Below are positions 2,875-34,565 of a stretch of 64,000 nt of DNA, piece by piece. The notes under the pieces are model-generated. The model was not told the origin of the DNA. It ran no database searches and saw only the letters and a program-made list of their open reading frames with translations. Origin of the DNA: Rhodospirillaceae bacterium (GTDB taxonomy: Bacteria > Pseudomonadota > Alphaproteobacteria > GCA-2731375). The stretch spans positions 1-64,000 of the forward strand of contig JABJKS010000072.1 in the NCBI GenBank assembly GCA_018660265.1. The letters run 5' to 3'. A program made the translations under genes and the position numbers. Positions within the stretch are counted from its first letter, which is position 1. Each line of letters opens with the position of its first letter.

Positions 2875-3948
2875 ATGTCAAAAATTACAATGATATATGC
2901 GTTGACGGCTTGTTTCGCTCTATCTGGTGCTGTTTGGACGTCTGCGGCAACGGCGGATGAAAAATTCAACGACAAGCCATACTCGGAAAAATGGGCTCCC
3001 AGTGAATGGGGCAAAGATGATATGGCAGGTTCGGTTAACCGGACCACTGCGGCCATGGTTTTAAAAGCAGCCAAGCTGGTCAAGCAGGGCAAAGTCCACA
3101 CCATGGGCAAAGTCTATCAACAAGATGCCCCGGCATTTGGCTCACGCGGTTGGCGTATGACCATTCCCGGCCTGCCCACGGGCGGTCCGTTCGGTGCCCA
3201 CAAAATGGTCTATAACGATGAATATCTATCCACCGAAATTGGTCAGATCGGCACCCAGTTTGATGGGCCAGGCCACATCGGCATCATGACTTCGAAAGGT
3301 GATTTCTTTTACAACGGCCGTAAACTTTCGGACCCGGACATTAACTCATATGGCATGGGCTCGCTCGGTGTGGAGCATGTGGCCAAGAAGGGTTTTGTCT
3401 GCCGTGGCGTGTTGTTGGATGCTGTCGCCCTGCGCGGTGGTCAATTGCCAATCCCAAAGATGCCAAGCCCGGCCGACCCTGGTGTCGTCACGGCTGACGA
3501 TGTGAAGGCTATGGTGAAGAACCAAGGCATCGATCCGATCGGTGAAGGCGATTGCGTCTTCCTCTACACCGGTCATGGCGATATCTGGCATCCCTCCAAG
3601 TGGGATACCTACGATGCGGCGGAAAAACAAAAGCGTGTCGCGATGTTTAATTCAGGCGAGCCGGGCTTTGGCATTTCGGCCTGCGATTATCTCGCGGAAC
3701 GTAAGATCATTCTGTGGGGTGGCGATACCTGGGCCACAGAGGCGGTTGGTGCCGGCTTTATGGGAGAAACCACGGAAATTTTTGAATGCCATGCCCAGAT
3801 GATGCCCCGTCGCGGCATCTGGAACCTGGAAAACCTGGACCTCTCACAACTGGTCGAAGACAAGGCCTATGAGTTCCTGTTTGTCTGGTCGCCCCTGAAA
3901 ATCAAGGGCGGCACTGGTTCACCGGGCAACCCGGTCGCCCTGTACTAG
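2875..3948 (+). CDS. Periplasmic cyclase-family (kynurenine formamidase-like) hydrolase
   Basis: 357-residue protein with a signal peptide (hydrophobic residues 5-25, ending SAATA). The metal-site motif of the cyclase/KynB family is present in modified form as QIGTQFDGPGHIG, where the family consensus is HxGTHxDxPxH, and TGHGDIWHPSKW follows. The family contains metal-dependent hydrolases acting on amides and lactones (arylformamidase, isatin hydrolase). The replacement of the first consensus His by Gln leaves activity uncertain. An AGGGAGG ribosome binding site precedes ATG 2875. The gene is divergent from the FAD dehydrogenase and ends inside a terminator hairpin. Confidence 0.75.
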   Translation: MSKITMIYALTACFALSGAVWTSAATADEKFNDKPYSEKWAPSEWGKDDMAGSVNRTTAAMVLKAAKLVKQGKVHTMGKVYQQDAPAFGSRGWRMTIPGLPTGGPFGAHKMVYNDEYLSTEIGQIGTQFDGPGHIGIMTSKGDFFYNGRKLSDPDINSYGMGSLGVEHVAKKGFVCRGVLLDAVALRGGQLPIPKMPSPADPGVVTADDVKAMVKNQGIDPIGEGDCVFLYTGHGDIWHPSKWDTYDAAEKQKRVAMFNSGEPGFGISACDYLAERKIILWGGDTWATEAVGAGFMGETTEIFECHAQMMPRRGIWNLENLDLSQLVEDKAYEFLFVWSPLKIKGGTGSPGNPVALY

Positions 3949-4119: not shown

Positions 4120-5682
4120 TTAATGCACGGCTGCGTACATGATTTCTTCTTCTGTTGCCTGGCCGCCGACGAATTCTTCCACCACCCGGCCTTGCCGGGC
4201 AACAAGAATGCGATCCGCCAGGGTGAGAACTTCCGGCAGGTAGGATGAGATGACAATGACAGTGACACCTTCGTCCGCCAGATTGCGGATGATCTGGTGG
4301 ATCTCGGGGATGGAACCCACATCGACGCCGCGTGTGGGTTCATCGAAGATCACCACCTTTGGCTTTTGCACCAGGGATTTGCCGACCACGACCTTTTGCT
4401 GATTACCGCCCGACAACTCATTCACTTTGACGTCTGCCGATGGCGCACGCACCTCCAGCCGTTTCGTCATATCCGTGCCCAGTTCGTTACGCCGACCGTT
4501 CGAGATCAAAAAGCCCCGGCCCAGTTTGGAGGCCAGCCAGGAAAGATAGATATTGTCCTTGATGGACATGGTTTCCAGAAAACCTTCGATCTTGCGATCT
4601 TCGGTGATGTAGACGATGCCGTCGTCGATGGCCTGTTTCGGCACCCGATAACGGATCGCCTCGCCATCCAGGAAAATCCGCCCGCCATGAAAAAGGTTCC
4701 GCTTGTAGGCGCCACAAATGATCTTGGCAATTTCCGTACGTCCCGAACCGACCAAACCGGCCATCACCGCGACCTCCCCCTCGTAGGCGGAGAACGACAT
4801 ATTCTTGACCATATTACCCATGGTGACGTTTTCCACCGTAAGCACCCGACGGCGTTTTTTGGATTTGCCTTCAATTTCGCCGTCTTTGGCGCGCTGTTGG
4901 TAATGGCTTTGCGCCTCTTCCCGGCCCACCATGTGACGCACCAGATCTTCCCGGCTCATCTCGGAGGTGGGCGCGGTGATGATATGCTTGCCATCCCGCA
5001 GCACCGTGATCCGGTCCGAGATATCGAGGGATTCTTCCAAGGCATGGGAGACATAAACGATGGAGACGCCGCGCGCCTTCAAATCCCGCACCAGGTCAAA
5101 GAAATGCTGTTTTTCCTCAGGCGTCAGGGTGGCGGTTGGTTCATCGAAAATAATCACCCGGGCATCGTGATAGACGGCACGGGCGATCTCCACCATCTGT
5201 CGCTGTGCTGCGCCCAGGGTGGCCACTGACAAGGCCGGGTCAACATGGAAATTGAGGGTCTGCAACATCACCTGCCCCTCAATATACAAACCCCGCATGC
5301 GGTTCATGAATTTCTCTTTGCCCAGACGCAAATTCTGCGCCACGGACATCGACGGCACCAACGAGGTTTCCTGATAGACCATGGCGATACCGGCTGCCAG
5401 GCTTTCACCCGGATTATCAAAATGACGCTCCACCCCATCCACCATGGTGGTGCCCGATGTCAACTTGATGGTGCCCGACAGCGCCTTGCACAGGGTCGAT
5501 TTACCGGCCCCATTCTCACCAGCCAAGGCATGGATCTCGCCCGGATAAAGATCAAAGTCGACGCCTTCGATAGCATGTACGCCGCCATAAATTTTGGTCG
5601 CGCCGATAACCTTGATCAGCGGTTCGCCTATATTCGACGCATCGGGCTTCGGCGCATCTGCTTCATTCGCAAGCGCATTCAT
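4120..5682 (-). CDS. Sugar ABC transporter ATPase (RbsA/MglA type, two NBDs)
   Basis: 520-residue protein with two nucleotide-binding domains, as in carbohydrate importers of the CUT2 class. The first domain has a canonical Walker A (GENGAGKST), a VARALYHDA-type linker region and Walker B (VIIFDEPTATL). The second has the degenerate P-loop GLVGSGRTE, signature LSGGNQQK and Walker B VVIFDEPTRGVD. This asymmetry is typical of RbsA. Its ATG overlaps the stop of the upstream lactonase gene (ATGA), so it is the last gene of the five-gene operon. The substrate is not given by the sequence. Confidence 0.92.
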   Translation of the reverse strand: MNALANEADAPKPDASNIGEPLIKVIGATKIYGGVHAIEGVDFDLYPGEIHALAGENGAGKSTLCKALSGTIKLTSGTTMVDGVERHFDNPGESLAAGIAMVYQETSLVPSMSVAQNLRLGKEKFMNRMRGLYIEGQVMLQTLNFHVDPALSVATLGAAQRQMVEIARAVYHDARVIIFDEPTATLTPEEKQHFFDLVRDLKARGVSIVYVSHALEESLDISDRITVLRDGKHIITAPTSEMSREDLVRHMVGREEAQSHYQQRAKDGEIEGKSKKRRRVLTVENVTMGNMVKNMSFSAYEGEVAVMAGLVGSGRTEIAKIICGAYKRNLFHGGRIFLDGEAIRYRVPKQAIDDGIVYITEDRKIEGFLETMSIKDNIYLSWLASKLGRGFLISNGRRNELGTDMTKRLEVRAPSADVKVNELSGGNQQKVVVGKSLVQKPKVVIFDEPTRGVDVGSIPEIHQIIRNLADEGVTVIVISSYLPEVLTLADRILVARQGRVVEEFVGGQATEEEIMYAAVH

Positions 5683-6764
5683 GGCCGGCCCTCTTCCTGA
5701 ATTGTTATGACCTTGTCATCGCCCTTCACCGCTGCCACCACAAGGCCGTTATTTACGGCGATGCCGGTGATACCGTGGCGACGGCCATCGGCGCGGCTAT
5801 GCAGACTGGCCACAACCTCGTAATCCTCGTCCAGGCGCACGACCAGGCCATAGCTGCGCGGCGGGGCCCAGGGTTTGATGATGCCCAGTACACGAAAACC
5901 GCCGCCCTGCAGGGGCTCCAGAAAATGCCGATCCGCACGCAAAGTGGGGCGCACCCAATAGGCCGGATCAATCGTCGCCATCATTTCGTTACGATAGTCG
6001 TCCTCTTCCAGCACGAACTCCAACATCTCGGTCCGCATGGCGAACAGACACATCCAATAACCGCCATCGGGGGCGGTTGCGATGCGGGCGGGATAGCCGG
6101 GCATGTTCGGGATCAATACTTCCCGTAGGCCTCGCCCGGGGTCTACATCCAGTGGCAATTTTGACAGCGTATGGGCCCAGCTTTCCGTGAACAACAAAGA
6201 CCGGCGATCATGATCCAGGGCCAAACCGTAGGGATAGGCCAGACCGTCGATTATGGTTTCCGACCTATCTGTATCCAGATCCCAGCGGATGATCCGGCCG
6301 GAAGCATTCTTCTCCATCAAATCGCGAACCCAATCAGCCTCTGCATGTTTGGCGGAGCCTTGAGCTATATAAAGGACGTTATCAGCACCTTCCAGAATTG
6401 CCGTGGCGCAATGCAGGGGTTTGCCGTTGACCTGTTCCAACCGCCGGCCGTCACTAAGCACCACGCCGATGCCATCCACGCAGGCCGCCAGACGCCCGCC
6501 CGCCAGGGAGGCAATGGCCGTGACCGGGCCATCGAACTGCGCCACGGCCTTGCCGTCCGTGGCAAAGACCCCGGTACCGCTGGATGTCAGCAACGCGCCG
6601 TCATCCGTGAAGGTCAGGTCATCGGGCTGGGTCAATTCCGCCAGCACAGGGCATTCATCGAGGGCGCTGTTCGGGCGCAACGGCCCGTCCATCATGGGAA
6701 TGGCGTGGGTCTCCCGATCCGGGAAAACCACATCCATGGCCATTTCCAACCAACGGGCGGTCAT
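5679..6764 (-). CDS. SMP-30/strictosidine synthase-like lactonase
   Basis: 361-residue beta-propeller protein of the SMP-30/gluconolactonase/strictosidine synthase-like superfamily. Recurrent blades show LTFTDDGALL, YPYGLALDHDRRSLLFTESW and IATAPDGGYWMCLFAMR. No signal peptide is seen, so a cytosolic site is expected. ATG 6764 is chosen because it forms an ATGA overlap with the stop of the permease fusion. It is partly parallel to the lactonase half of that fusion (similar NGxCL/PYGLAL and DGNYW/DGGYW blades), so the operon encodes two related propellers. Hydrolysis of an imported or newly oxidised sugar lactone is a reasonable inference. Confidence 0.8.
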   Translation of the reverse strand: MTARWLEMAMDVVFPDRETHAIPMMDGPLRPNSALDECPVLAELTQPDDLTFTDDGALLTSSGTGVFATDGKAVAQFDGPVTAIASLAGGRLAACVDGIGVVLSDGRRLEQVNGKPLHCATAILEGADNVLYIAQGSAKHAEADWVRDLMEKNASGRIIRWDLDTDRSETIIDGLAYPYGLALDHDRRSLLFTESWAHTLSKLPLDVDPGRGLREVLIPNMPGYPARIATAPDGGYWMCLFAMRTEMLEFVLEEDDYRNEMMATIDPAYWVRPTLRADRHFLEPLQGGGFRVLGIIKPWAPPRSYGLVVRLDEDYEVVASLHSRADGRRHGITGIAVNNGLVVAAVKGDDKVITIQEEGRP

Positions 6765-8887
6765 GCCTTTGGGCCCCAATAGCTATCCGAACTATCCCAG
6801 GTCGGATCCGCATCGGGTAGCGGGATGCGCCCGATCCGGTTATTCATCAGGCCGCCCAGATACAGATATCCGCGATGTTCCCGCATTGACGTAATGGCGG
6901 GATGGTTTTCAGCGCTTTTATCCCAGTACGAGGCGAGAACCTCGCCCTCGGCGGTGAACTTAATGACACTGCCGTTGTTGATATTGGAATAGAGCCATTC
7001 ATCAGGGGGCACCCGTTTGACCATGCGGGTGCGGAAGCCGGGCATGCGCATGGCCAGATCATAGGCCGGTGTGCGCATGCCGGTCATGGCCAGCCAATAA
7101 TTGCCATCGGACGAGCGATTGATGTTGTCGGGGTTACCCGGCAGATTTTCGATCACCGTTTCCACCGTGCCTTTTTTGGGGCCGGCAATCCAATAGCGCT
7201 TAATCTGGCAAATCCAGGTCAGGGCAAAAAAGATGGACTGGCCGTCATGGGCCAGGCAAATGCCGTTGGGGAACATCAGGTTTCGAATGAGTGTACGGGT
7301 CTGTCCCGTGGCGGGGTCATGGCAGATAATGCGGCCGTTGCCCCGGCCTTCCAGACCGTCCATGGCCCAGGAATGCATCTCGTATCTGGTTGTCGCCTCT
7401 GAGAAATAGATTTTGCCGTCGGGGGCGATATCCAGATCGTCGGCCAGGCGCAGACGGCTGTCATCAGCGATCTTCCATCGTGTGCGGTTGGTTTCATCCG
7501 TGACCTTGAAAACCTCGCCGTCGGGCCGCACGCCATAGACGCCCATGCCGCCAACACAGACCAGGAGATTTTCGTCTCGGTCAAAGGCCAGACCCAGGGG
7601 CCGTCCGCCGATGCGGGCAAACACTTCCACATCTTCAAAGTTTTCCCCTGACAGGCGCATGATCCAGCCTTCGCGGGTGCCTGTATAGATCCGCCCCTGA
7701 CGATCCAGGATCACATCCTCGGGTCCATCCACCTTACCCAGACCGATAGGCTCGGCGTTCGTAAGAGCGTCATTCTGGGCGTAGATGCTGTCCGAATTCT
7801 CTGTCGCATCGGGCAGTTCGCCCAAATCCAGCAACGCCGGCACAACATAGATTTTCGAGATCGCCTTGTTCTTGTTCTTCATCCACTTCACATCGATGCC
7901 CACGGCGACCAGCATGATCAAACCTTCCAGGGCAAAGGTCGGCCCGCCTGTCACGCCAAGGCGCACCAAGCCATTGATCAACACCAGGATCGTCGTTGCC
8001 CCAATCAAGGCGCGGCCAACGGAACCCTTACCACCCGCCAGGCTGACCCCACCCAGGACAGCGGCGGTCAGGGCCATAACCTCCAAGCCATCACCGGTGT
8101 TGGAGGCGGAACTGTTCAGCCGGGCGGCATACATCAACCCGCCCAGGGAACACAGCATGCCGGACAGGACATAGGTCCAGAAGATCGTGCGGTTGATCGG
8201 GATACCAGCATGGCGCGCCGCCTTACGGTTGGAGCCAATGGCGGCGATGTGCCAGCCGGGGCGGGAACGGCTTAACAGGGCATGGCCGATAACGGCGATG
8301 ACCATCAAAATACAAACGTTGGCCGGAATGCCCCACAAGGTCCCCTCTCCAAGGAATTCCCAGGCAGCGCTTTCGTTATAGGACGTAGCGATATCAATGG
8401 CGAAGGTCGGCGCGGTCAGATCGAAGGTGGCGCGAATAATGATCAGGGTTACAAGCGTGGTCAGAAAGGCACCAAGCTTTAAATAGCCGATCAGAAAGCC
8501 GTTAATGGCCCCCAGCAACCCACCCGAAAGCAGCACCAGGATGACCACAAGGCCGATAGGTAATTCATAGACATTGAACAGCACCAGGGCGATAAAATCC
8601 GCCATGGCGAATATGGCGCCGACGGACAAATCGATACCGCCCACCACCAGCACAACGGTCATAGCCAGGACAACAAAGCCGAATTCGGCAAATTGGCTGG
8701 AGGTGTCCGTCAGATTATCCAGAGTCAGATAATTGGGTATGGCCACGGCGCAAAAGACAATGACCCCCAGCATCATGATGAAGGGCACCGCTGGTTCCAT
8801 CCAGCGTTTAGACAGCAATTCCGCCACGGTCCGCTGCAGAGACCATTTCGCGTGCAGCTTCAGATAAGTATCGGAGATCACGGACAT
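6761..8887 (-). CDS. ABC sugar permease fused to an SMP-30-like lactonase domain
   Basis: 708-residue fusion. Residues about 35-335 are an RbsC-type permease with many membrane segments and the family motifs VVGGIDLSVGAIFAMA and LTAAVLGGVSLAGGKGSVG. After a polar linker (about 340-375, MKNKNKAISK) comes a strictosidine-synthase-like propeller of about 330 residues with GPEDVILDRQGRIYTG, FPNGICLAHDGQSIFF and GNPDNINRSSDGNYWLA. The frame is continuous with no sign of a sequencing break. RbsC-type permeases usually end in the cytoplasm, so the propeller would face the cytosol, where incoming substrate emerges. SBP, second permease, lactonase and ATPase genes flank it. Confidence 0.88.
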   Translation of the reverse strand: MSVISDTYLKLHAKWSLQRTVAELLSKRWMEPAVPFIMMLGVIVFCAVAIPNYLTLDNLTDTSSQFAEFGFVVLAMTVVLVVGGIDLSVGAIFAMADFIALVLFNVYELPIGLVVILVLLSGGLLGAINGFLIGYLKLGAFLTTLVTLIIIRATFDLTAPTFAIDIATSYNESAAWEFLGEGTLWGIPANVCILMVIAVIGHALLSRSRPGWHIAAIGSNRKAARHAGIPINRTIFWTYVLSGMLCSLGGLMYAARLNSSASNTGDGLEVMALTAAVLGGVSLAGGKGSVGRALIGATTILVLINGLVRLGVTGGPTFALEGLIMLVAVGIDVKWMKNKNKAISKIYVVPALLDLGELPDATENSDSIYAQNDALTNAEPIGLGKVDGPEDVILDRQGRIYTGTREGWIMRLSGENFEDVEVFARIGGRPLGLAFDRDENLLVCVGGMGVYGVRPDGEVFKVTDETNRTRWKIADDSRLRLADDLDIAPDGKIYFSEATTRYEMHSWAMDGLEGRGNGRIICHDPATGQTRTLIRNLMFPNGICLAHDGQSIFFALTWICQIKRYWIAGPKKGTVETVIENLPGNPDNINRSSDGNYWLAMTGMRTPAYDLAMRMPGFRTRMVKRVPPDEWLYSNINNGSVIKFTAEGEVLASYWDKSAENHPAITSMREHRGYLYLGGLMNNRIGRIPLPDADPTWDSSDSYWGPKA

Positions 8888-8990
8888 GGGGACCCTGACG
8901 GATTAATTGGCGATGCGATGATGTTTAGACGGCAACCCCGGCAACGGTAAAAAACATCCATCGCCGGGGCACCTTACAGACAGGATGGGT

Positions 8991-10013
8991 CTATTTTTTG
9001 CCCATCAGATCGCGGCAATCATCCTTGGCGACCGTTTCTTTTGCCAGAACGTCGATCGGTGTGTACAGGGCGAACGGGCGCTCACCAGGTTCCACCTTCA
9101 TTTGCGCCATGGCTTGGATGGCGTTGACCACATCACGGCCCTGCAAATAGCTGTCATAGCCATAATGCTTGTCCAGGATACCTGTTTGCAAGGAATCACA
9201 AACAGGGCGTGAATTGCTGCCCGAGCCATAGACCAGGACTTCACCGGTTTTGCCGGCTTCCTTAATGGCCTGGCCGGAACCCATCATCATGATGCCCCAG
9301 ACACCTACCGTGGCACACAGATCGGGATGCTGTTGCAACACAGCCGCCGTGATGTCATGCGCCTTGGTCGCGTCCCACTGGGCGGCCTGATCGTTGACCA
9401 CGTTGATTTTGCCCGAGGCCTTAAAGGCTTTCATCAGGCCCACGTTGAACCAGACATTGGCAGCCGCGGTTAATTCGCCTTGTACGATGGCGACCTTGCC
9501 GCCTTTGGCAGCGCATTGTTTGACGATATCATCGCCCACTTCCTGGCCATGGCTAACCCAGTCAACGCCGACGAAACCAGAGGAGCGATAGTTGGACGCC
9601 ATGTTCAGCTGGATCACATGGGTGCCGTTTTGTTCAGCCTTACGAAACAATTTTGCGAAAACCTGAACGTCAGGATTCTGCACGACCAGATAGTCGACCT
9701 TTTCCGAAATCAGGGCCGAGATCGCCTGCGACATGGCGTTCATATTCCAGGCCGGATCCTTCACCACATAGTTCATACCGATAGCCGTCGCCGCATCGCG
9801 GATACCCGCATCCCAGAAATCGGAGAGGGGCAGGCCCAGGGAAATCGGGACAAAGGCGACCGTCTTGCCGTTAAGCGCATCGACGAAATCGCTGCGCACC
9901 ATGCGCTCTGTCTTGCCGCTGATTTTACCGGCGGCGATGGCACCACCCGCGGCCAGGGCCACTGTTGCCGCCATGACCGTTACGGCCAGACCTTTAAGGA
10001 TATTCCGTTTCAT
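8991..10013 (-). CDS. Periplasmic sugar-binding protein of the ABC importer
   Basis: 340-residue solute-binding protein of the Peripla_BP_4 (ribose/galactose-binding) family. The signal peptide is MKRNILKGLAV... to GGAIAAGK. Family features include VAFVPISLGLPLSDFWDAG, LISEKVDYLVVQNPD and WGIMMMGSGQAIKEAG. ATG 10013 is preferred over upstream in-frame starts because GGGAGAG lies 6 nt before it and it gives a proper signal peptide. It lies between the two permease genes and is the specificity subunit; the ligand (sugar, polyol or sugar acid) cannot be read from sequence. Confidence 0.9.
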   Translation of the reverse strand: MKRNILKGLAVTVMAATVALAAGGAIAAGKISGKTERMVRSDFVDALNGKTVAFVPISLGLPLSDFWDAGIRDAATAIGMNYVVKDPAWNMNAMSQAISALISEKVDYLVVQNPDVQVFAKLFRKAEQNGTHVIQLNMASNYRSSGFVGVDWVSHGQEVGDDIVKQCAAKGGKVAIVQGELTAAANVWFNVGLMKAFKASGKINVVNDQAAQWDATKAHDITAAVLQQHPDLCATVGVWGIMMMGSGQAIKEAGKTGEVLVYGSGSNSRPVCDSLQTGILDKHYGYDSYLQGRDVVNAIQAMAQMKVEPGERPFALYTPIDVLAKETVAKDDCRDLMGKK

Positions 10014-10123
10014 TTTTTGCTCTCCCATATTGTTATGAAATATTGTTGGCTTAGTTTCGTTTAGAGCAATTGAAGCAATCACTCTTTTCTTACGCGTTCG
10101 GGCATGTTTAAAGCAGACATGCG

Positions 10124-11122
10124 CTAGTGATCCCCTTGCTTGTCGGTTTCTTCATCCTTGGGGTGCAGACGGCGGTCGATCACGATCGCGGCCAATAAGA
10201 CGACGCTTTTCGCGATGTTCTGCGCATCGCTGTTGACATTCAAAATGGTCATACCATTCAGCAAAATGCCGATCAGGCAGGCACCGACGACGACACTGAC
10301 AATGCTGCCCCGCCCGCCGCTAAGGCTGATACCTCCCAGCACCACAACCAGCAAAACATCAAACACCAGGGTGGAATTGATCACCTCCGTATTCATAGAA
10401 GCGACCGAGGAGGCCATGGTGAGACCGGCGATAAAGGCGATAAAGGCACTGAAGGCGTAGGAGAATATAATCAGGGGCCGCACCGCGACCCCCATCAGGC
10501 GGGCGGCCAGCATATTATCGCCCAGGCCAAAAATATGACGCCCCACCACGGTCCGGCTCAACATCCAATGCACGAACACGGCCGCAACGATAAATATGAT
10601 TATAGGCATTGGAATGCCAACGAGGTGCCCTTGGCCTATGAACAGAAAGTCGTCCGCCCCCTTTGGCGGGTAGGCATGCACACTGTCGATCAACAGCCAA
10701 CGGCCAACACCGAAGCAAACCAAACCGGTGGCCAGGGTGGCAAACAAAGGCGGGATTTCAATAAAGGCGATGATCCAGCCATTTAAGACGCCGATAGCCA
10801 AGGCAAACAACAACCCCAGGGCCATGGCCGGAAAAAGCGTCATGCCGCCATTCATCAGGGTCAGGGTCCAGGCTGCGGATATGGCCATCACGGAGACCTG
10901 GGACAAATCCAAACCCCGGCCGATCACCACAACAGCCATGCCGGTGGAAAGAATGCCCAGAATGGCAATGCTGCGCAGCATGGCGACGATATTGCCGATG
11001 GAGGCGAAGCCTTGCAGGGAAACGGCAAAAAAGATGAAACAGGCCACGGCGATGGCAAAAACAATCAGTTCCTGGCTCGGCTTGCCAAAGCGGCCCAATA
11101 GACCTGCCAAAAGACCTGCCAA
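10124..11122 (-). CDS. ABC sugar permease (RbsC family)
   Basis: Polytopic permease with the RbsC motifs VVIGRGLDLSQVSVMA and VVLGGISLSGGRGSIV. It probably pairs with the permease half of the fusion gene to form a heterodimer. The coordinates use a TTG at 11122. The frame stays open to ATC 11170, and a perfect AGGAGG lies 5 nt before that ATC, so the true start may be a non-standard codon 16 codons upstream (adding ISKISDAAEAQTPSGF). As the first gene of the five-gene operon it sets the operon start; the promoter should lie within 11171-11350. Confidence 0.85.
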   Translation of the reverse strand: MAGLLAGLLGRFGKPSQELIVFAIAVACFIFFAVSLQGFASIGNIVAMLRSIAILGILSTGMAVVVIGRGLDLSQVSVMAISAAWTLTLMNGGMTLFPAMALGLLFALAIGVLNGWIIAFIEIPPLFATLATGLVCFGVGRWLLIDSVHAYPPKGADDFLFIGQGHLVGIPMPIIIFIVAAVFVHWMLSRTVVGRHIFGLGDNMLAARLMGVAVRPLIIFSYAFSAFIAFIAGLTMASSVASMNTEVINSTLVFDVLLVVVLGGISLSGGRGSIVSVVVGACLIGILLNGMTILNVNSDAQNIAKSVVLLAAIVIDRRLHPKDEETDKQGDH

Positions 11123-11372
11123 AAAACCTGATGGTGTCTGAGCCTCTGCGGCGTCAGAAATTTTTGAGATAACGGCCTCCTGATAACAGCCCCGAACGTG
11201 CGGTCTTGTAACGATACCGCATCTGAACTGTGCGATTTTGAAACGATAGGTTATCGATCAATATCTAATGGGGCAAGAGGCCACAAAAAAAGTGTCAGTA
11301 ACATGTGATCTGTCCGGTTTATGTACCAAATGGTCTGTCCGGATTTAGAAGGTCTCCATAGGGAGGACTTCG

Positions 11373-27066: not shown

Positions 27067-27900
27067 TCAGGCGGCGAGGGCCGATAGTTTTTGATGCCGG
27101 AAGGCCCCCCACAGGGCTGCACCGATGGCCCCGGCATGAATGGAATCCGGATGGCTGGTCAGGTCCAGGCCGTCCATTTTCTGGACTGCCATACGTTCCG
27201 CCATGGTCGCCACAAGGCCGCTGTCATTGGCCAGGCCGCCGGTTACCAGGACCGTACCGTCTGCCACCTTGGTTGATTTCAACAGTTTGACCAGGCGATC
27301 CGCCATGGAGACATGGATGCCCTTCAGGATATTCTGCGTGGAGATACCCCGGCTGACCATATTGATCACATCAGTCTCGGCCAGCACCGCACAGATGGAG
27401 CTAACAGCCTCCGGGTCGTCGGCTTCTTGTGACAGCGGACCCACCTCATCCAAAGCTACACCGAGATAACGGGCGATGTTTTCCAGGAACTGACCGGAGC
27501 CCGAGGCGCATTGACTGGTCATCTTGTAGGTCAGGACCTTGCCCCGATCATCCACGCGGATAGCCCGGCCATGCAAGGCACCCACATCCATGGCCGCACG
27601 GGTGTCGGGCTCCAAATAGATGGCGCCCCTGGCATGGGTCGTCATGGAATAAAAATGCCCGGTGCGAAATTCTACATTCTCGCCCTCGCCGGTGGTGGCC
27701 ACATAATCGACATCGGCCTCGCTCAGACCCGCCTCGGCCAACATTTCGTCATAGCATTGCCGGGCCAGCTCCAAGGGGTCGCGGCGGCGAATACGCTCCA
27801 ACCGTTTGGTGATCCATTCCGGGTTCGCCCCGCCTTCGCTGCGAAACAGCACCGTCTTGACCGCGCCGGTGCCAATATCGATACCTGCTGTAATATGCAT
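27067..27900 (-). CDS. bcrD: Benzoyl-CoA reductase, ATPase subunit D
   Basis: 277-residue ASKHA-fold ATPase of the BcrAD/BadFG/HgdC family. It begins GIDIGTGAVKTVLF (phosphate loop 1), shows Cys131 in TSQCASGSGQF and Cys170 in SICAVLAETD (the two Cys each subunit contributes to the inter-subunit [4Fe-4S] cluster), and VLVTGGLANDSGLV near the end. With BcrA it hydrolyses ATP to drive electrons into the BcrBC active site for ring reduction of benzoyl-CoA. One base separates its start from the bcrA stop. Confidence 0.93.
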   Translation of the reverse strand: MHITAGIDIGTGAVKTVLFRSEGGANPEWITKRLERIRRRDPLELARQCYDEMLAEAGLSEADVDYVATTGEGENVEFRTGHFYSMTTHARGAIYLEPDTRAAMDVGALHGRAIRVDDRGKVLTYKMTSQCASGSGQFLENIARYLGVALDEVGPLSQEADDPEAVSSICAVLAETDVINMVSRGISTQNILKGIHVSMADRLVKLLKSTKVADGTVLVTGGLANDSGLVATMAERMAVQKMDGLDLTSHPDSIHAGAIGAALWGAFRHQKLSALAA

Positions 27901-27901
27901 C

Positions 27902-29293
27902 CTAATGCTCCGTCATTTCTGTTTCGCCATTCCCAACACCGTCAACGCCGTCAATGGCCAAATCTGCGGCCTCATCTGCAGCCTCATCTATGGCTCTGCG
28001 TGCAAACGTCGCAGCACCCAAGGCACCGGTGTAAATGGAATCCGGGTCGATGTTGATGGTCACATCGCCGTAGTTTTCTTTGATCAACTGCTTCAGTGCT
28101 TTGACCGCCGCGCCGTTGTTGGCGACGCCGCCTGTAAAGGTGAACTGATCGCGAATGCCACCCGATCGGGACAGGATCGACATGGCGCGCAGAATAATCG
28201 CCCGATGTAGCCCGGCCAGAATATCTTCCCGCGCCTCACCTAATGACAAACGATCCCGCAATTCTGCACCCGCGAACACGGTGCAGGTGGAATTGATCCG
28301 TACGTTGCGGGTGGATTTCAGCGCTAAAGGCCCCAGTTCGTGCAGGCCAAGGTTCATTTCATCGGCGATATAGCCGAGGTAACGTCCGCACCCTGCGGCA
28401 CAGCGGTCGTTCATCTGGAAGTTTTCGACGATGCCTACAGGGTCCACTTGGATCGCCTTGGTGTCCTGACCACCGATATCCAGAACCGTTGCGGTATCGG
28501 GATACATCACATGCGCCCCGAGGCCGTGGCAGAGGATTTCAGAGCGGATGTGATCCTTGGAAAACGGCAGCCGCGCCCGGCCATATCCGGTGCCAATGAC
28601 ATAGGTTTCTTCCAACGGTGTATCCAGGACCGCGCGGACCGGTGCGCGAACCGCATCGGATGCGGTGGCCAGATCTTCGAAGGCGTGGAAGGTACGATCC
28701 AGGGCGCGCATCAGTTTATCTGACAGGCTTTCCTCGGATATGCGGTTTTCCACGTCGATGATGGAGCGGTCATAAACGTTGAGTACATGGTCAAAGGATA
28801 AATTGCTTTCCCCTGCCACCACTTCGCCAACGGCCAAATAGCGGGAGCCGGCAATATCGCGAAAGAAATCAGACTTGCGTTGGCCGCCGGGGGCGAACTG
28901 CGCCGGTGCTTCATCGTTCAGGCGTCGAAAGACCTCTGCCAGCGCCTCATGCAAGGCGTCTGTCTCGCCGCCAAAGCGCGCCGTGTCCGCGTTGGCGATG
29001 CAGGTGCGTTCCAGATCCGCCAGTTGTTCCAAAAATTGTTCCAACCGGAAATCCCGGACCAACTGGCCCAGAAATTCATCCAACTTGCCATCCAGGGCCG
29101 CGACCCCATCAAGGGTCTGGCGGAATAGATGAAAGCGGGCGTTCAACAAAGCTTCCTGCTTGGCAACTTCCGCTGCCACGTCGTAGTTGGAGCGGGAGTT
29201 GGTAATGCCCCGGCCCAGGACCTGCAGATTGTCATCCATGACCACAGCCTTGGTGGTGGTGGAGCCCAGGTCGATGCCAATAAAACAATCCAT
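27902..29293 (-). CDS. bcrA: Benzoyl-CoA reductase, ATPase subunit A
   Basis: 463-residue partner of BcrD. The ASKHA start is [17 protein letters not shown]. Cys298 ([13 protein letters not shown]) and Cys337 ([12 protein letters not shown]) are the cluster ligands, and [13 protein letters not shown] is the second phosphate-binding segment. A helical insert at about residues 40-230 precedes the catalytic core, as in BcrA and BadF, making it much longer than BcrD. It lies 11 bp after bcrB. The heterodimer transfers electrons from ferredoxin to BcrBC at the cost of ATP. Confidence 0.93.
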
Positions 29294-29304
29294 TGTTCTT
29301 CTCC

Positions 29305-30606
29305 CTACGCGGCGTGCGCGGCGTTTTTTTGTTGCAGCATCTGGAAATAGCTCTCCAACCGGTTCTTGACGTTGGCGGCTGAAAAGTAGCGCGGGTCGAC
29401 CAGATCGGTTTCGATGAAGGCACCAGGCTTGCCGGTGCGTCTTTCAAGCTCCCGCAGCATCAACAATTGCCCGGCGGAAAAGCTGTTGCAGCTCTTCACG
29501 GAATTGATCAGCAGACCGTCCGCCTGGTAATCCTCCATATAGCTTTCCAGCATGCCGATGCGTCGGGGCAGGGAGAGATTGGTGTAACACCCAAGGCAAT
29601 AATCGGCCAATGACTCGATGGGGTTTTCCGCGTCATGGCGGAAACCGAAGTCATAGACGCCGCCCACCTTGGTGTAGGTAGAGGCGACGACGACGGCACC
29701 TTCGTCATAGAACATTTTCCAGAAGTCACGAAAGTTGGTGTAATTCGGTGTGCCCTCGACCACCAGGCGGAATTTCTCCTTGCCGGCATCACCCTCCGGC
29801 GTGACCGGACCCTGACCGTTGGCGAGGCGCTGTTCGATCTCGCCGCGCAGGGCGCGGTAATATTCCGTCGCCGCTTCGGTACCGCGAAAAGCGGTAAAGA
29901 TCGGACCAATGTAGTAGACGCCGCCAAAAAAGGCATCGATGGGTGAGGGGCGATTTTTTGCTGACTGCAAAATCCAAACCAGGTCATCCTCGGCCTTGGC
30001 GGATTCCCGCATGTATTGGCGCAGGCGGTCGATGTCGAACTTGATGCCGCTGACCCGTTCCAGGGTTGGGATGACGTCTTCCTTCAGCTGTTTGACCACA
30101 TAGTCGCGCATGTTTTGGGTAATCTTGCCGTCCGCCTGATAGGGCACGTGCAGCATAATGGTCTCGCAATCGTACTTTTCCCGCACCAGCTCGAACCATT
30201 TCATGAAGGTGAAACAACCCGTGTAGGACAACAGCAACACGTCCGGGTCGGGCAGCTTGTCGCCCGTGGGGCCGATGTTGCCCTGTTCGATCATGCCCAG
30301 ATCGGACTTCACATAGGTGCAAACGTCCTCGGACTGGCCATTACGCTCCGCCTCCATGATAAAGCGCCCGGATTTTTTACGCATGCCGTTTTGCAGGGCG
30401 TTGATCTCGGGGAAATTGCGGGTGATATCAAAACACATGAGCAATTCGTTCAGATTACCCGGTACGAAGGTGGAGGAGACCTTGCGGCCCTCTTTATTGG
30501 CGGTGGCCAGGGATTTGAAGTTGGCGTCGATCATCTCCTTCTGCTTCAGCATGGAGGATTCTTTGATCACGTCGGTTGAGGGTTTGGCGGCGGCTGACTT
30601 GTTCAT
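29305..30606 (-). CDS. bcrB: Benzoyl-CoA reductase, active-site subunit B
   Basis: 433-residue member of the HgdB/BcrB family (2-hydroxyglutaryl-CoA dehydratase D-component fold). Features include [59 protein letters not shown] and [21 protein letters not shown], the last being typical of the substrate- and cluster-binding C-terminal domain. ATG 30606 or 30609 is the start: the doublet ATGATG overlaps the bcrC stop, and GGAG lies 6 nt before 30606. With BcrC it binds benzoyl-CoA and two-electron-reduces the ring to the 1,5-dienoyl-CoA. Confidence 0.92.
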
Positions 30607-31781
30607 CATGCGCTCCATAATTTGATGGTGTCGGCAAAGGTGCCGGCTTGTTCGCGGATCGCCTGCAACTGCCCGGTATTCTCGGCATATTTGAAGGCGG
30701 TGAAGGGGATTTCGTCTCTGTTCAGGGCTTCCTGCAACATGGGCCGGTCCAACAAGGCCGGGTCGCAAAAACTAGGTGCGGCAAATATCACGCCCTCGGC
30801 CTTGCTTTTGCGAACCTGTTTGATCAGGAATTTGCCTTTGTCCGCCTTGTCCGGTTCAAACTTCGCCGACGTTGCCGCAGAATGATGCAGGAAGGCTTTC
30901 GATAGGTTTTCCATTGGGTCGCCCGTGGTGGGCACATCGTCGATCAGCCAGCGGGTGATCAGCAGGAAATCATCATCGACCACGTAACAGCCCGCCATTT
31001 CCAGGGATTTGATCAGACCCAGGGGTGGCTGTTCGCAAAACACGCCGTTGACCACGACCCGGCAGTTGTCCCGCCGGGGCCGTTCTTCCTCTTGGGCAGC
31101 AGCGATATAGTCGCGCAGCAGCTGGGTATGATCCTCCACCGGCAAAACCATACCGGCCCGCAACAGCAAATAAATCTCGGACGCCGGGGCCTGCCAGGGC
31201 TGTTGGGCGCGTAGATCGTAAAGCTCCGATATGACGGCTCGGTTCTCATTATAGACAGCGATTGAATTGTGCAGGTCTTCATCAGTGATGGGACGCCCGG
31301 CCATTTCGGCCAGGTCATCCCGCAGGTCTTGCAGCTCGTGAATATAAAATGTACCGGCAATATCGTCGCGATAGGTTTGCGGCACATCGAAGTATTTGAC
31401 GTATTTATCCTTGAACAACAGCTGCCACATACCGGACAAATTGCGGATCACATCGCAGATGGAGGGAAACAGCATGCCGTCCAGGCTATCCAGCCGACCG
31501 GTCAGGCCCAGTTCTATGGTGGAGCGGGGAATGCGGCAAATATAGCTTTGATAATAGGCATCACCATGGATCACTTCCAACTGATCACCGCCGCCGAAGA
31601 TACCCACCGGCAACATGCCTGCGGCATGAATGATCTCCCGGGGTACATAGATTGGCAGGTAGCCGATGGCTTTGCCGCCGGGGTTGGCAGCCTTCCAATC
31701 CTTGACGGCGTTAAAATCCAGGTCGTCAAACAGGGTCTGGCAGCGGTCGACAATGTCTTTTACGGTGGCTTTCACGGTCAT
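30606..31781 (-). CDS. bcrC: Benzoyl-CoA reductase, active-site subunit C
   Basis: 391-residue partner of BcrB in the HgdB family. Visible conserved parts are KAIGYLPIYVPREIIHAAGMLPVGIFGGG, YICRIPRSTIELGLTG, FPSICDVIRNLSG and VIFAAPSFCDPALLDRPMLQEAL. The gene order bcrC-bcrB-bcrA-bcrD-fdx is that of the class I (ATP-dependent) enzymes of Thauera and Magnetospirillum. It is the first gene of the operon and is divergent from korA across about 230 bp that must hold both promoters. Confidence 0.92.
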   Translation of the reverse strand: MTVKATVKDIVDRCQTLFDDLDFNAVKDWKAANPGGKAIGYLPIYVPREIIHAAGMLPVGIFGGGDQLEVIHGDAYYQSYICRIPRSTIELGLTGRLDSLDGMLFPSICDVIRNLSGMWQLLFKDKYVKYFDVPQTYRDDIAGTFYIHELQDLRDDLAEMAGRPITDEDLHNSIAVYNENRAVISELYDLRAQQPWQAPASEIYLLLRAGMVLPVEDHTQLLRDYIAAAQEEERPRRDNCRVVVNGVFCEQPPLGLIKSLEMAGCYVVDDDFLLITRWLIDDVPTTGDPMENLSKAFLHHSAATSAKFEPDKADKGKFLIKQVRKSKAEGVIFAAPSFCDPALLDRPMLQEALNRDEIPFTAFKYAENTGQLQAIREQAGTFADTIKLWSA

Positions 31782-32010
31782 CTCGGTTCATCTCCCAATT
31801 TGCGGCCCAAAAATTGGCCCAAATTACAGTTGTGACCTCGTCGTCTTCCCCTGACTTCGTCTTGTCCCCTTATCTCTTTCTTGCGTTGTCTCTGTTGCCC
31901 GCCGTTACCGAAAACCCCAAAGGCATTGACGGGCTTTTCTAATTATGGTATTTAAGTACCACAATACGAATAACAACGTCAACTGTTATTTCGAGCGAAG
32001 GGACAGGCCA
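31782..32010. promoter_or_regulatory. Divergent promoter region bcrC / korA with palindromic site
   Basis: AT-rich stretch between the two divergent operons. It contains the inverted repeat GGTA-TTTAAG-TACC at 31947-31960 inside TTATGGTATTTAAGTACCACAATA, a reasonable operator for a dimeric regulator. No benzoyl-CoA-responsive regulator gene (BzdR, BadR or BoxR type) is recognised in the window; the Rrf2 protein encoded at 35617 is the nearest candidate. -35/-10 boxes cannot be assigned with confidence. Confidence 0.45.
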
Positions 32011-33726
32011 ATGACAAATAGGGAAACCTGCACGATCGTAATGCTGGGCAGTGGCGGTTCCGGGGTGATGACGGCAGCGGAAATCCTGCTCCGTGCCGGT
32101 GCCCGGGCCGGATACTACGGCTTGATGACGAAATCCTTCGGGCCGCAGATCCGTGGTGGTGAGGCGGCAGCCTTTGTCACGCTGTCCACCCAGCCTGTTG
32201 AAATTCAGGGCGACCGGATCGATTTGTTGTTCGCCATCGATTGGAAAAATACCGAACGGTTTGCCGGCGAGCTGCAATTGGATCCCGAAAGCCTGGTTCT
32301 TTCCGGCGAGGTCGATGCGGAACTGCCGAACATTGTGACCGCGCCGAAGGCAATTATGGGGGAAGTCAATTTAAAGAAACTGACCCGTTCCAATAAAGGC
32401 ACCCGGCCAAACATGGTTGCCCTGGGCGTGGTCGCCGGTGCGGTTGGTTTGCCGCAGGATATTGTTGCCGACCTGGTGGGTGAGCGCCTGAAGAAAAAGG
32501 GCGATGCCGCCATGACCCATGGTTTGACGGCGATTGACCTCGGCTACGGCGAAGCGGCGGGCTTTGATGTGGTGCCATTGGCCCCTGCCGATGACCCGTC
32601 GGAAAGGTGGATTATTTCCGGCAATCAGGCAGCCGGATTGGGGGCATTGCGCGGCGGCGTTCGATTTGCCGCTGCCTATCCCATTACCCCCGCCACGGAA
32701 ATTCTGGAATGGCTGGCACCCCGGTTGCAGAAAATCGGCGGTCTGTTGGTTCAGGCCGAGGATGAACTGGCCTCCATCAACATGATCATCGGCGGCTCCT
32801 TTGGTGGCTCGGCGGTGCTGACGGCGACCTCCGGCCCCGGTCTGGCCTTGATGAGCGAGTCTATCGGTTTGGCAGTGGCGGCAGAGATCCCCTTGCTGGT
32901 GATCGATGTTATGCGTGGTGGCCCCTCAACCGGTATCCCGACCAAATCAGAACAGTCTGATTTGAACATCGCCGTCTATGGCCTGCACGGGGATGCGCCC
33001 CATGTGGTGACGGCACCCAATTCCATCGCGGACTGTCTGTTCACCACACAATGGTCCAGCCATCTGGCCGAGTCTATGCAGGTGCCAACCATCATGTTGT
33101 CGGACCAGTCATTCGGCCAGGCCATGGGCATCGTAGAAAAACCAGCCGAACTTGCCTTTGCCACCCGCCGTCTGGTGGCGGAGGGCAGACAAGCCGACTA
33201 CCATCGCTATGCCCTGACGGCGTCCGGTGTCTCACCCATGGCATTGCCGGGTACGCCGGGCGGGCAATATACCGCTGATGGGTTGGAGCATGCGGTCAGC
33301 GGCACGCCATCGTCCTCCGTCGCCGATCACAACGCGCAATTGGACAAACGTTTGCGCAAAGTCACGGGTTTTGACTATGGCGACCATTGGGCGCAAATCG
33401 AAGGTGACGGCTCGGCTGCCGTCATCACCTGGGGGTCAGCCACCGGGCCCGTGCGCCAGGCATTACAGCGGCTTGATCCTAGGGGTGGGCGGTTGCGCCT
33501 GATCTCCCTGCGTCTGATCAGCCCGGCCCAACCGGCGCGTCTGGCCGAGGCACTATCGGGGTGTGATCGGATCATGGTGGTCGAACAAAGCCAGACGGCG
33601 CAGTTTTTTACCCACCTGAAAGCGCAATTCGATTTACCACCCATGGCCGATCTATACGCCCGGCCGGGACCGCAACCATTTCGCGCGGCGGAAATCGCCG
33701 CCAAGTTGGAGGATTGGCTGTCATGA
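32011..33726 (+). CDS. korA: 2-Oxoacid:ferredoxin oxidoreductase, fused gamma-alpha subunit
   Basis: 571 residues. The N-terminal gamma domain (TIVMLGSGGSGVMTAAEILLRAG; KSFGPQIRGGEAAAFVTLS) is fused to the alpha, pyrimidine-binding domain (FAAAYPITPATEILEWLAPRL; ATSGPGLALMSESIGLAVAAEIP; RGGPSTGIPTKSEQSDL). This is the layout of 2-oxoglutarate:ferredoxin oxidoreductase KorA. ATG 32011 is chosen by its AAGGGA site and by where the gamma domain begins. With KorB it oxidises 2-oxoglutarate (or a related oxoacid) to the acyl-CoA and reduces ferredoxin. Divergence from bcr suggests it powers benzoyl-CoA reductase. Confidence 0.92.
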   Translation: MTNRETCTIVMLGSGGSGVMTAAEILLRAGARAGYYGLMTKSFGPQIRGGEAAAFVTLSTQPVEIQGDRIDLLFAIDWKNTERFAGELQLDPESLVLSGEVDAELPNIVTAPKAIMGEVNLKKLTRSNKGTRPNMVALGVVAGAVGLPQDIVADLVGERLKKKGDAAMTHGLTAIDLGYGEAAGFDVVPLAPADDPSERWIISGNQAAGLGALRGGVRFAAAYPITPATEILEWLAPRLQKIGGLLVQAEDELASINMIIGGSFGGSAVLTATSGPGLALMSESIGLAVAAEIPLLVIDVMRGGPSTGIPTKSEQSDLNIAVYGLHGDAPHVVTAPNSIADCLFTTQWSSHLAESMQVPTIMLSDQSFGQAMGIVEKPAELAFATRRLVAEGRQADYHRYALTASGVSPMALPGTPGGQYTADGLEHAVSGTPSSSVADHNAQLDKRLRKVTGFDYGDHWAQIEGDGSAAVITWGSATGPVRQALQRLDPRGGRLRLISLRLISPAQPARLAEALSGCDRIMVVEQSQTAQFFTHLKAQFDLPPMADLYARPGPQPFRAAEIAAKLEDWLS

Positions 33727-34565
33727 ATATGGATACCGCAGGTGCCCCGGGGCCATTGACCGCACGGGATTATAAATCGGACCTGAAACCGGTCTGGTGT
33801 CCCGGCTGCGGGGATTTTTCCGTCCTCTCCGCCATCACCATGGCCCTGGCCGATATCGCCCGCCCACGGGAGGAGGTCGCCGTGATCTCCGGCATCGGTT
33901 GTTCGTCCCGCGTGCCTGCCTATACCAACTGTTACGGCTTTCACGGCGTGCATGGCCGGGCCCTGCCCCTGGCGGCGGGTTTGAAGTTAAGCCGCCCTGA
34001 TTTGCTGGTCATTGCAGCGGGCGGTGATGGCGACGGCTATTCCATTGGCGGCAATCATTTTCTGCATGCCTGCCGTCGCAATGTGGACCTGACCTATATC
34101 GTCATGGACAATCAGGTCTATGGCATGACCAAGGGGCAACCATCGCCCACCACGTCGCCGGAATGGGACAGTGCCCTGGTGCCCGGCGGCACGGGGGTGC
34201 GACCGTTCCATCCCCTTGTTATCGGCCTTGCCGCAGGGGCCAATTTTGTCGCCCGTACATTTTCAGGTGATCCCAAGGGCACGGCGCGCACCATAGCGGA
34301 GGCGATCCGCCATCCGGGATTCTCCCTCATCGAGATCCTCAGCCCCTGTGTCACCTTTCGGCCCGAAGAACGTGATTGGGCCAATCAGGTTCACCCGGCT
34401 GCGGTGGAGGAAACCCAGGACAGGGCCCAGGCGGCGCGCCGGGTTCTGACCGATGATGGTTTCAATACCGGCGTTCTATACCGTGGCGACCGGCCAGCCT
34501 ATCAGCCCAATTTCGCGCCAAAGGATGCGGATCTGTCGGAATTCGAAAGGGAGTTTCTGCCATGA
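33723..34565 (+). CDS. korB: 2-Oxoacid:ferredoxin oxidoreductase, beta subunit (TPP-binding)
   Basis: 280-residue beta subunit. The cluster/TPP start VWCPGCGDFSVLSAITMAL, the SGIGCSSRVPAYTNCYGFHGVHGRALPLAAGLK segment and the TPP-Mg motif GDGDGYSIGGNHFLHACRRN...MDNQVYGMTKGQ are all present. ATG 33723 overlaps the korA stop (ATGA), so the two are translationally coupled. Like other KorB proteins it needs a separate ferredoxin as acceptor; the Alvin-type ferredoxin across the divergent promoter is the obvious partner. Confidence 0.93.
   Translation: MNMDTAGAPGPLTARDYKSDLKPVWCPGCGDFSVLSAITMALADIARPREEVAVISGIGCSSRVPAYTNCYGFHGVHGRALPLAAGLKLSRPDLLVIAAGGDGDGYSIGGNHFLHACRRNVDLTYIVMDNQVYGMTKGQPSPTTSPEWDSALVPGGTGVRPFHPLVIGLAAGANFVARTFSGDPKGTARTIAEAIRHPGFSLIEILSPCVTFRPEERDWANQVHPAAVEETQDRAQAARRVLTDDGFNTGVLYRGDRPAYQPNFAPKDADLSEFEREFLP

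Follow-up and report, generated by a model that had tools for sequence, protein, structure and literature searches.

A CUT2-type importer cassette of Proteobacteria with a predicted hydrolase propeller fused to one permease and a sister propeller lacking the metal site

ATP-binding cassette (ABC) importers of the CUT2 (RbsABC-like) type bring small molecules into the cell with two permeases, a binding protein and an ATPase. Here we describe a five-gene RbsABC-like importer encoded on the minus strand, at positions 4120-11122, of a 64,000-nucleotide stretch (hereafter the window) of contig JABJKS010000072.1 from a Rhodospirillaceae bacterium. Its genes run in the order permease 1, binding protein, a second permease continuing into a β-propeller domain (the fusion), another propeller that is soluble (SSL2), and an ATPase containing two nucleotide-binding domains (NBDs). 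In our reading, the cassette is a CUT2 importer in which one of the two permeases carries a built-in hydrolase, so that import would be coupled to the hydrolysis of a lactone or ester, and we give this reading a probability of roughly 0.58. The cassette was compared across 93 loci, comprising 80 genome-contig loci, 12 plasmids and the window, which were selected for likeness to the fused domain and to the junction, and include many from Bradyrhizobium.

The fusion (708 residues, 6761-8887) is one open frame, in which all Pfam matches lie above the curated cut-offs: BPD_transp_2 covers residues 61-327, SSL_N residues 369-412 (61.9 bits, gathering threshold 18.9), Str_synth residues 483-569 (72.5 bits, gathering threshold 25) and SGL residues 430-603. 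The SGL match (46.2 bits, cut-off 26.3) is weaker than that to Str_synth and spans model positions 42-203 of 246. A preliminary description of this DNA had proposed an RbsC-type permease running in frame into a strictosidine-synthase-like propeller, and this architecture is confirmed. The AlphaFold2 model (mean pLDDT 83.1, pTM 0.64) consists of ten predicted membrane helices in residues 33-346 (7850-8791), followed by a six-bladed propeller in residues 366-690 (6818-7792). The membrane fold is assigned from Pfam and the AlphaFold2 helices; propeller matches fill the VIA-align list, which contains no permease structure. By Foldseek and VIA-align, the fused propeller matches TGW6 (8kg3; Z 34.1, 278 residues, rmsd 2.4), strictosidine synthase (Z 33), DFPase (Z 30.6), the RPA3624 lactonase (Z 30.2) and PON1. 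TGW6 is also its best solved sequence match (phmmer E 5.8e-26). Pfam matches and model together thus assign the fused domain to the strictosidine-synthase-like branch of metal-dependent N6P hydrolases.

Alignment with TGW6 by phmmer locates four metal-ligand positions in the fused domain, namely E390 (TGW6 E59; 7718-7720), D483 (TGW6 N167; 7439-7441), N541 (TGW6 N226; 7265-7267) and D587-N588 (TGW6 D271-N272; 7124-7129), all on the minus strand. By this alignment all four are present in the 93 sequences: E390, N541, D587 and N588 are invariant, position 483 is D in 90 sequences and N in three, and D484 is retained throughout. A C-terminal domain without metal ligands, the outcome that the preliminary description had set against a lactonase, is therefore not what the family contains. 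The TGW6 ligand list is taken from PMC10958001, the available part of which gives E59, N167, N226 and N272 as the calcium-site equivalents; chain numbering is offset by 28 in our alignment. The assignment of E390 rests on the TGW6 alignment, and global hhalign comparison with canonical SGL proteins failed to place this residue. A stand-alone relative on a Pseudomonas plasmid (36% identity) carries the same ligand residues as the fused domain.

The ligand set bears on two other accounts of the propeller. As stated in the accessible part of PMC4215206, most strictosidine-synthase-like proteins retain four metal ligands and are predicted hydrolases, and the true strictosidine synthases are metal-independent exceptions in the subgroup. 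By that rule, a strictosidine synthase proper is excluded for the fused domain. That the propeller forms a bond like the plant enzyme would be consistent with the shared fold and with the invariance of E670, a residue aligned to the strictosidine synthase EHDG motif, but the metal site is kept and we consider such chemistry highly improbable. A less remote, though still doubtful, account takes an ester conjugate (acyl sugar or aryl ester), in place of a lactone, as the substrate, with the domain acting on it like TGW6, an indole-3-acetic acid (IAA)-glucose hydrolase. TGW6 is indeed the closest solved protein by both sequence and fold, and salicylyl-CoA 5-hydroxylase-type genes stand after the cassette in 8 of the 93 loci, all Bradyrhizobium (1356 bits for that of locus L034, cut-off 1078). 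Against it, the fused domain is more acidic at the calcium site than TGW6, for which the part of PMC10958001 at hand gives one acidic residue, and the 3-hydroxy-3-methylglutaryl-CoA (HMG-CoA) reductase contexts described below fit a hydroxy acid or a lactone.

The gene following the fusion tells a different story. SSL2 (366 residues, 5679-6779, with ATG 6764 or TTG 6779 as start options) is, by hhalign, a homologue of the fused domain (probability 100, E 5.8e-45, 300 columns), matches Str_synth (45.9 bits) and SGL (38 bits) above both cut-offs, and is modelled with the same propeller fold (pLDDT 89.6). Its N-terminus is not hydrophobic in 92 of 92 sequences, and that of the binding protein is hydrophobic in 68 of 90, as judged by a Kyte-Doolittle window rather than a signal-peptide predictor. 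The preliminary description was thus right that the next gene encodes a second propeller devoid of a signal peptide; its view of this propeller as a second, free lactonase is not supported, and a second active lactonase was rejected, as the metal site is gone in all 89 sequences aligned. At the position of D587 these have A (38), G (28) or S (23), never D; at that of D483 they have T (55), N (16), L (14) or other residues; and N541 is matched by N in only 15. Other residues are nearly invariant, for example W150, E199, Y229-P230, E254, E259, K302-P303 and H335-G336, and SSL2 therefore appears, from its sequences, to be under constraint for another role. It is probably a pseudoenzyme partner.

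SSL2 also lends something to the idea that the fused propeller is itself a non-catalytic ligand sensor, gating the importer from the cytosol with SSL2 as its partner. Regulatory C-terminal domains gate some other ABC importers, the pairing with the transporter is obligate, and SSL2 is an example of a propeller that persists in the cassette after loss of its metal site. We nevertheless find a sensor unlikely, since E390, D/N483, D484, N541, D587 and N588 are kept in all 93 fusions, beyond the needs of a binding domain, and the stand-alone relative retains the same residues.

Hydrolysis coupled to import would place the propeller on the inner side of the membrane. In the fusion permease, the mean number of K+R per loop (93 sequences) is 4.5, 0, 1.9, 5.7, 1.0 and 4.6 for the even-numbered loops, against 0.0-0.2 for the odd-numbered ones. 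The linker to the propeller lies on the same side as the loop with 5.7, which we take to be the loop contacting the ATPase in this permease fold. Because of this charge pattern and the model, both ends of the membrane part are predicted to be inside and the fused propeller to be cytosolic. The cytosolic location that had been put forward as a condition of coupling is thus upheld, and topology prediction does not give the periplasmic placement that would have spoken against it.

The fusion was found in other genomes, as the preliminary description had proposed to look for. The genome-contig scan covered at least 594 stretches, and the best 80 of at least 551 relatives were kept; a plasmid tblastn search with the fusion gave 15 records covering at least 80% of the query, 12 of which were fetched. 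Left out were L021, a stand-alone strictosidine-synthase-like gene that served as control, and the short loci L001-L008. Permease and propeller share a single frame without a stop in 93 of 93 loci, and chance read-through was rejected as the origin of the fusion, with the proviso that the loci had been selected on the fused domain and the junction. Wherever there is room for them the partners are present: permease 1 in 84 of 84 loci, the binding protein in 89 of 89, SSL2 in 89 of 89 and the ATPase in 86 of 86, with all five genes in the same order in 80 of 80. Overlaps recur at two junctions, of 4 nt between SSL2 and the ATPase in 70 loci and of 4 nt between fusion and SSL2 in 43. All 12 fetched plasmid records are annotated with permease, binding protein, fused gene and SSL2 in this order, and in 11 the ATPase follows. 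In L018 the gene for it reaches the record end and is missing from the annotation table, its DNA being present. Most hosts are Alphaproteobacteria (Bradyrhizobium, Mesorhizobium, Sneathiella and others), together with Betaproteobacteria (Bordetella hinzii, Variovorax, Paraburkholderia) and Gammaproteobacteria (Alcanivorax and a Pantoea plasmid).

Samples drawn regardless of the fusion show that its pairing with SSL2 is obligate in them. Among 142 genomes across the class of the window, the fusion occurs at five places in four genomes (595-699 bits); SSL2 is found at the same five places and nowhere else at E 1e-40, and near relatives of permease 1 (283-327 bits) occur in cassettes only, other permeases scoring at most 143 bits. 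Eight other genomes of this sample have stand-alone propellers (180-241 bits). On plasmids, SSL2 scores above 200 bits in 16 records, and these coincide with the 16 fusion records (H1-H16, the fusion match of H16 being partial and at the record end), and the other five matches reach at most 80 bits. Among 398 genomes across the phylum there are 17 fusions in 11 genomes, all from the window's class in that sample. Of 15 genomes from the family to which the window belongs, 2 carry the fusion; a third match spans the permease part only.

Some loci deserve separate mention. L060, from an uncultured Dongia, has three fusion cassettes in tandem (1-21119). L067 (1-7927) lies on a contig labelled Mycobacteriaceae and groups with Comamonadaceae in the tree, which may reflect misbinning or transfer. 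Long open frames hinted at further permease fusions; none was convincing in the three loci read, and the frames look like GC-rich shadow frames.

The genes around the cassette bear on what may be imported. Neighbours within seven genes were grouped by strict clustering over the 93 loci, one member per cluster being named by Pfam or NCBIfam. They include short-chain dehydrogenases (32 loci), enoyl-CoA hydratases (19), zinc alcohol dehydrogenases (17), aldehyde dehydrogenases and AraC regulators (16 each), CoA-transferases III (15) and two groups of acyl-CoA ligases (15 and 14). Control loci were 40 with ordinary RbsC-type permeases, 35 of them long enough, and the 69 fusion loci with full flanks were reduced to 37 by dereplication at 85%. 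CoA enzymes were found in 24 of the 37 fusion loci and 4 of the 35 controls (Fisher p 3e-6). The query proteins for both CoA and sugar enzymes were taken from fusion loci; with the donor loci removed, the CoA count is 18 of 31 (p 7e-5). On the fusion tree, a quick search without bootstrap, the 93 loci are sorted by neighbour context, with 15 changes as against a shuffled mean of 39.4. These observations favour a link to CoA-thioester catabolism, that is, import of carboxylic acids handled as CoA thioesters. What these contexts share may be a cargo that is turned into a carboxylate for activation by CoA, as would happen to a lactone or ester on hydrolysis, and different branches of the family probably take up different substrates.

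This neighbourhood weakens the sugar lactone that the preliminary description had favoured as substrate. CUT2 transporters mostly carry sugars, and in the Pantoea locus L012 the neighbours include sugar genes and an arabinonolactone oxidase, both of which would suit a gluconolactone-like cargo. However, sugar-enzyme markers occur in 4 of the 37 fusion loci and 8 of the 35 controls, which do not differ significantly (p 0.21, donor loci included), and the domain groups with strictosidine-synthase-like proteins rather than with gluconolactonases. Nor does any NCBIfam transport equivalog, for sugars or otherwise, reach its cut-off with the cassette proteins: the best match is 470.9 bits for the ATPase (cut-off 699) and 162.4 bits for the fusion permease (cut-off 398). 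We regard a sugar-lactone importer as quite improbable.

A more specific substrate is suggested for some branches. HMG-CoA reductase is encoded near the cassette in 6 of the 93 loci, as is HMG-CoA lyase in 6. Loci with the reductase come from Mesorhizobium, Shinella HZN7 and Alcanivorax S71-1-4, among others. Two of the six reductases match the NCBIfam degradative model (442 and 424 bits, cut-off 260), and four were run against Pfam. L056 and L057 have the order MocR-like gene, HMG-CoA reductase, CoA transferase, enoyl-CoA hydratase, cassette, HMG-CoA lyase. Permease 1 is directly preceded by the reductase in L009 and L058, and in L088 the lyase is on the opposite strand. The reductase label requires three changes on the fusion tree, at least two of them forced by well supported branches. 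Because a degradative reductase is nearby, the context in these six loci suggests mevalonate or mevalonolactone as the likely substrate. An HMG-CoA reductase also occurs in the control locus L141, which has an ordinary RbsC-type permease.

Two further contexts were noted. In L010 (2513-6877) and L025 (7435-9650) an APH-type kinase and an acyl-CoA dehydrogenase beside the cassette are reminiscent of 4-hydroxyacyl-CoA breakdown; such a pair occurs in levulinate catabolism. With 2 of 93 loci this link was too thinly represented and was dropped. In the Sneathiella locus L023 (2485-6259), a close cassette relative has hydantoinase A/B genes upstream and acyl-CoA carboxylase genes downstream.

In the importer-hydrolase that we propose, the binding protein would deliver a small lactone or ester, and the permease pair would carry it across the membrane, driven by ATP hydrolysis at the RbsA-like ATPase. 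Near the channel exit, the metal-dependent propeller, anchored by the cytosolic C-terminus of permease 2, would open the ring or ester. The product, a carboxylate or hydroxycarboxylate unable to leave by the same route, would pass to CoA ligases or transferases. For SSL2, the diverged sister from which the metal site is missing, translation would be coupled to that of the fusion; its most likely part is that of a structural or regulatory pseudoenzyme docked on the fusion or on permease 1.

Several points weigh against this proposal. The available part of PMC10958001 reports that TGW6 hydrolyses IAA-glucose with no calcium seen at its site, and metal ligands are therefore not a sure sign of mechanism; by analogy with TGW6, the substrate could also be an open ester. 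The pTM of the fusion model leaves the position of the propeller relative to the membrane unsure, and the loop before D483 (residues 466-469 and 471-479) has pLDDT below 50. Moreover, 13 of the 37 dereplicated loci are without any CoA enzyme searched for. Finally, a putative cyclase, a GlcD-like oxidase and an aldo-keto reductase flanking the cassette in the window are unmatched in the other 92 loci, and the CoA pattern is therefore not tied to this organism.

The remaining cassette proteins, which the preliminary description had right, give the cassette the composition of a CUT2 importer. Permease 1 (10124-11122, 332 residues) is RbsC/AraH-type and unfused (BPD_transp_2, 116 bits). The periplasmic substrate-binding protein (8991-10082; Peripla_BP_4, 131.8 bits) has a signal-like N-terminus and most likely starts at ATG 10013, about 110 nt past the end of permease 1 (10124). 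The RbsA/XylG-type ATPase (4120-5682, 520 residues) matches ABC_tran in two stretches, one for each NBD. Three overlapping or nearly overlapping junctions had been counted; two overlap, fusion and SSL2 by 4 nt from ATG 6764 or 19 nt from TTG 6779, and SSL2 and the ATPase by 4 nt. At the two junctions upstream of these the genes are separated by about 100 nt, with 103 nt between binding protein and fusion.

Adjoining the cassette in the window are the cyclase gene with a signal-like N-terminus (2875-3948, plus strand), the GlcD-like FAD oxidase gene (1275-2792, minus) and the aldo-keto reductase gene (260-1234, minus); with these three unmatched elsewhere, substrate inference from them was dropped. 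No degradative HMG-CoA reductase was found beside the window's cassette. The only HMG-CoA reductase of the genome (23391-24578, minus) lies 12 kb away, beside wecB/wecC among polysaccharide genes, and is nearest the NADPH model TIGR00533 (274 bits, below the 441.8 cut-off); mevalonate was rejected as this organism's substrate on these grounds. Farther on, genes for benzoyl-CoA reductase subunits D, A, B and C (27067-31781, minus), all above NCBIfam cut-offs, point to anaerobic aromatic degradation, and 2-oxoacid oxidoreductase-like open reading frames adjoin them (31945-34565, plus).

The cassette shares its permease family, tandem-NBD ATPase and Peripla_BP_4 binding protein with CUT2/RbsABC sugar importers (RbsC, AraH, XylG and AlsB families). 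It differs from them in that one of its permeases ends in a hydrolase-like propeller, a gene for a soluble propeller is always present, its neighbours are more often CoA enzymes, and its transport equivalog scores lie below cut-off. With TGW6 and the strictosidine-synthase-like N6P subgroup the fused domain has in common the fold, SSL_N and Str_synth matches and ligand positions; unlike TGW6 it is bacterial, predicted to be cytosolic, tethered to a permease and, judging from the part of PMC10958001 available, more acidic at the metal site. SMP-30/gluconolactonase, DFPase, PON1 and the RPA3624 lactonase share the six-bladed fold and type of metal site at 15-18% identity (VIA-align), the SGL model being covered only in part. 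A propeller lactonase fused to another protein, a Cu/Zn-SOD, is known from Deinococcus radiodurans; according to the part of PMC12362111 available, its partner is an enzyme, not a transporter. The open-licence PMC literature yielded no paper on a permease-propeller fusion, no bacterial mevalonate importer and nothing of use on transporter-enzyme fusions, and as far as these searches show the fusion cassette is widespread yet undescribed. Its proteins are hidden behind automatic names such as 'SMP-30/gluconolactonase/LRE family protein', 'ABC transporter permease', 'hypothetical protein' and 'strictosidine synthase'.

Many soil and marine bacteria have a five-gene uptake system whose nutrient may be opened on entry. 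More tentatively, and with the odds against it, the cassettes could form an importer family with vectorial hydrolysis, in which a lactonase tethered to the permease opens each lactone where it leaves the channel, while the dead sister, encoded alongside in every case seen, completes a two-propeller cytosolic module gating transport by product or substrate, and which serves branch-specific lactone and hydroxy-acid pathways, including a dedicated mevalonolactone/mevalonate importer. The HMG-CoA reductase branches offer a checkable guess at the substrate which, if true, would provide an importer for mevalonate catabolism. An importer permease covalently joined to a putative cargo-processing enzyme, accompanied by an enzyme-dead sister across many proteobacterial genera, could serve as a test case for the coupling of import and metabolism.

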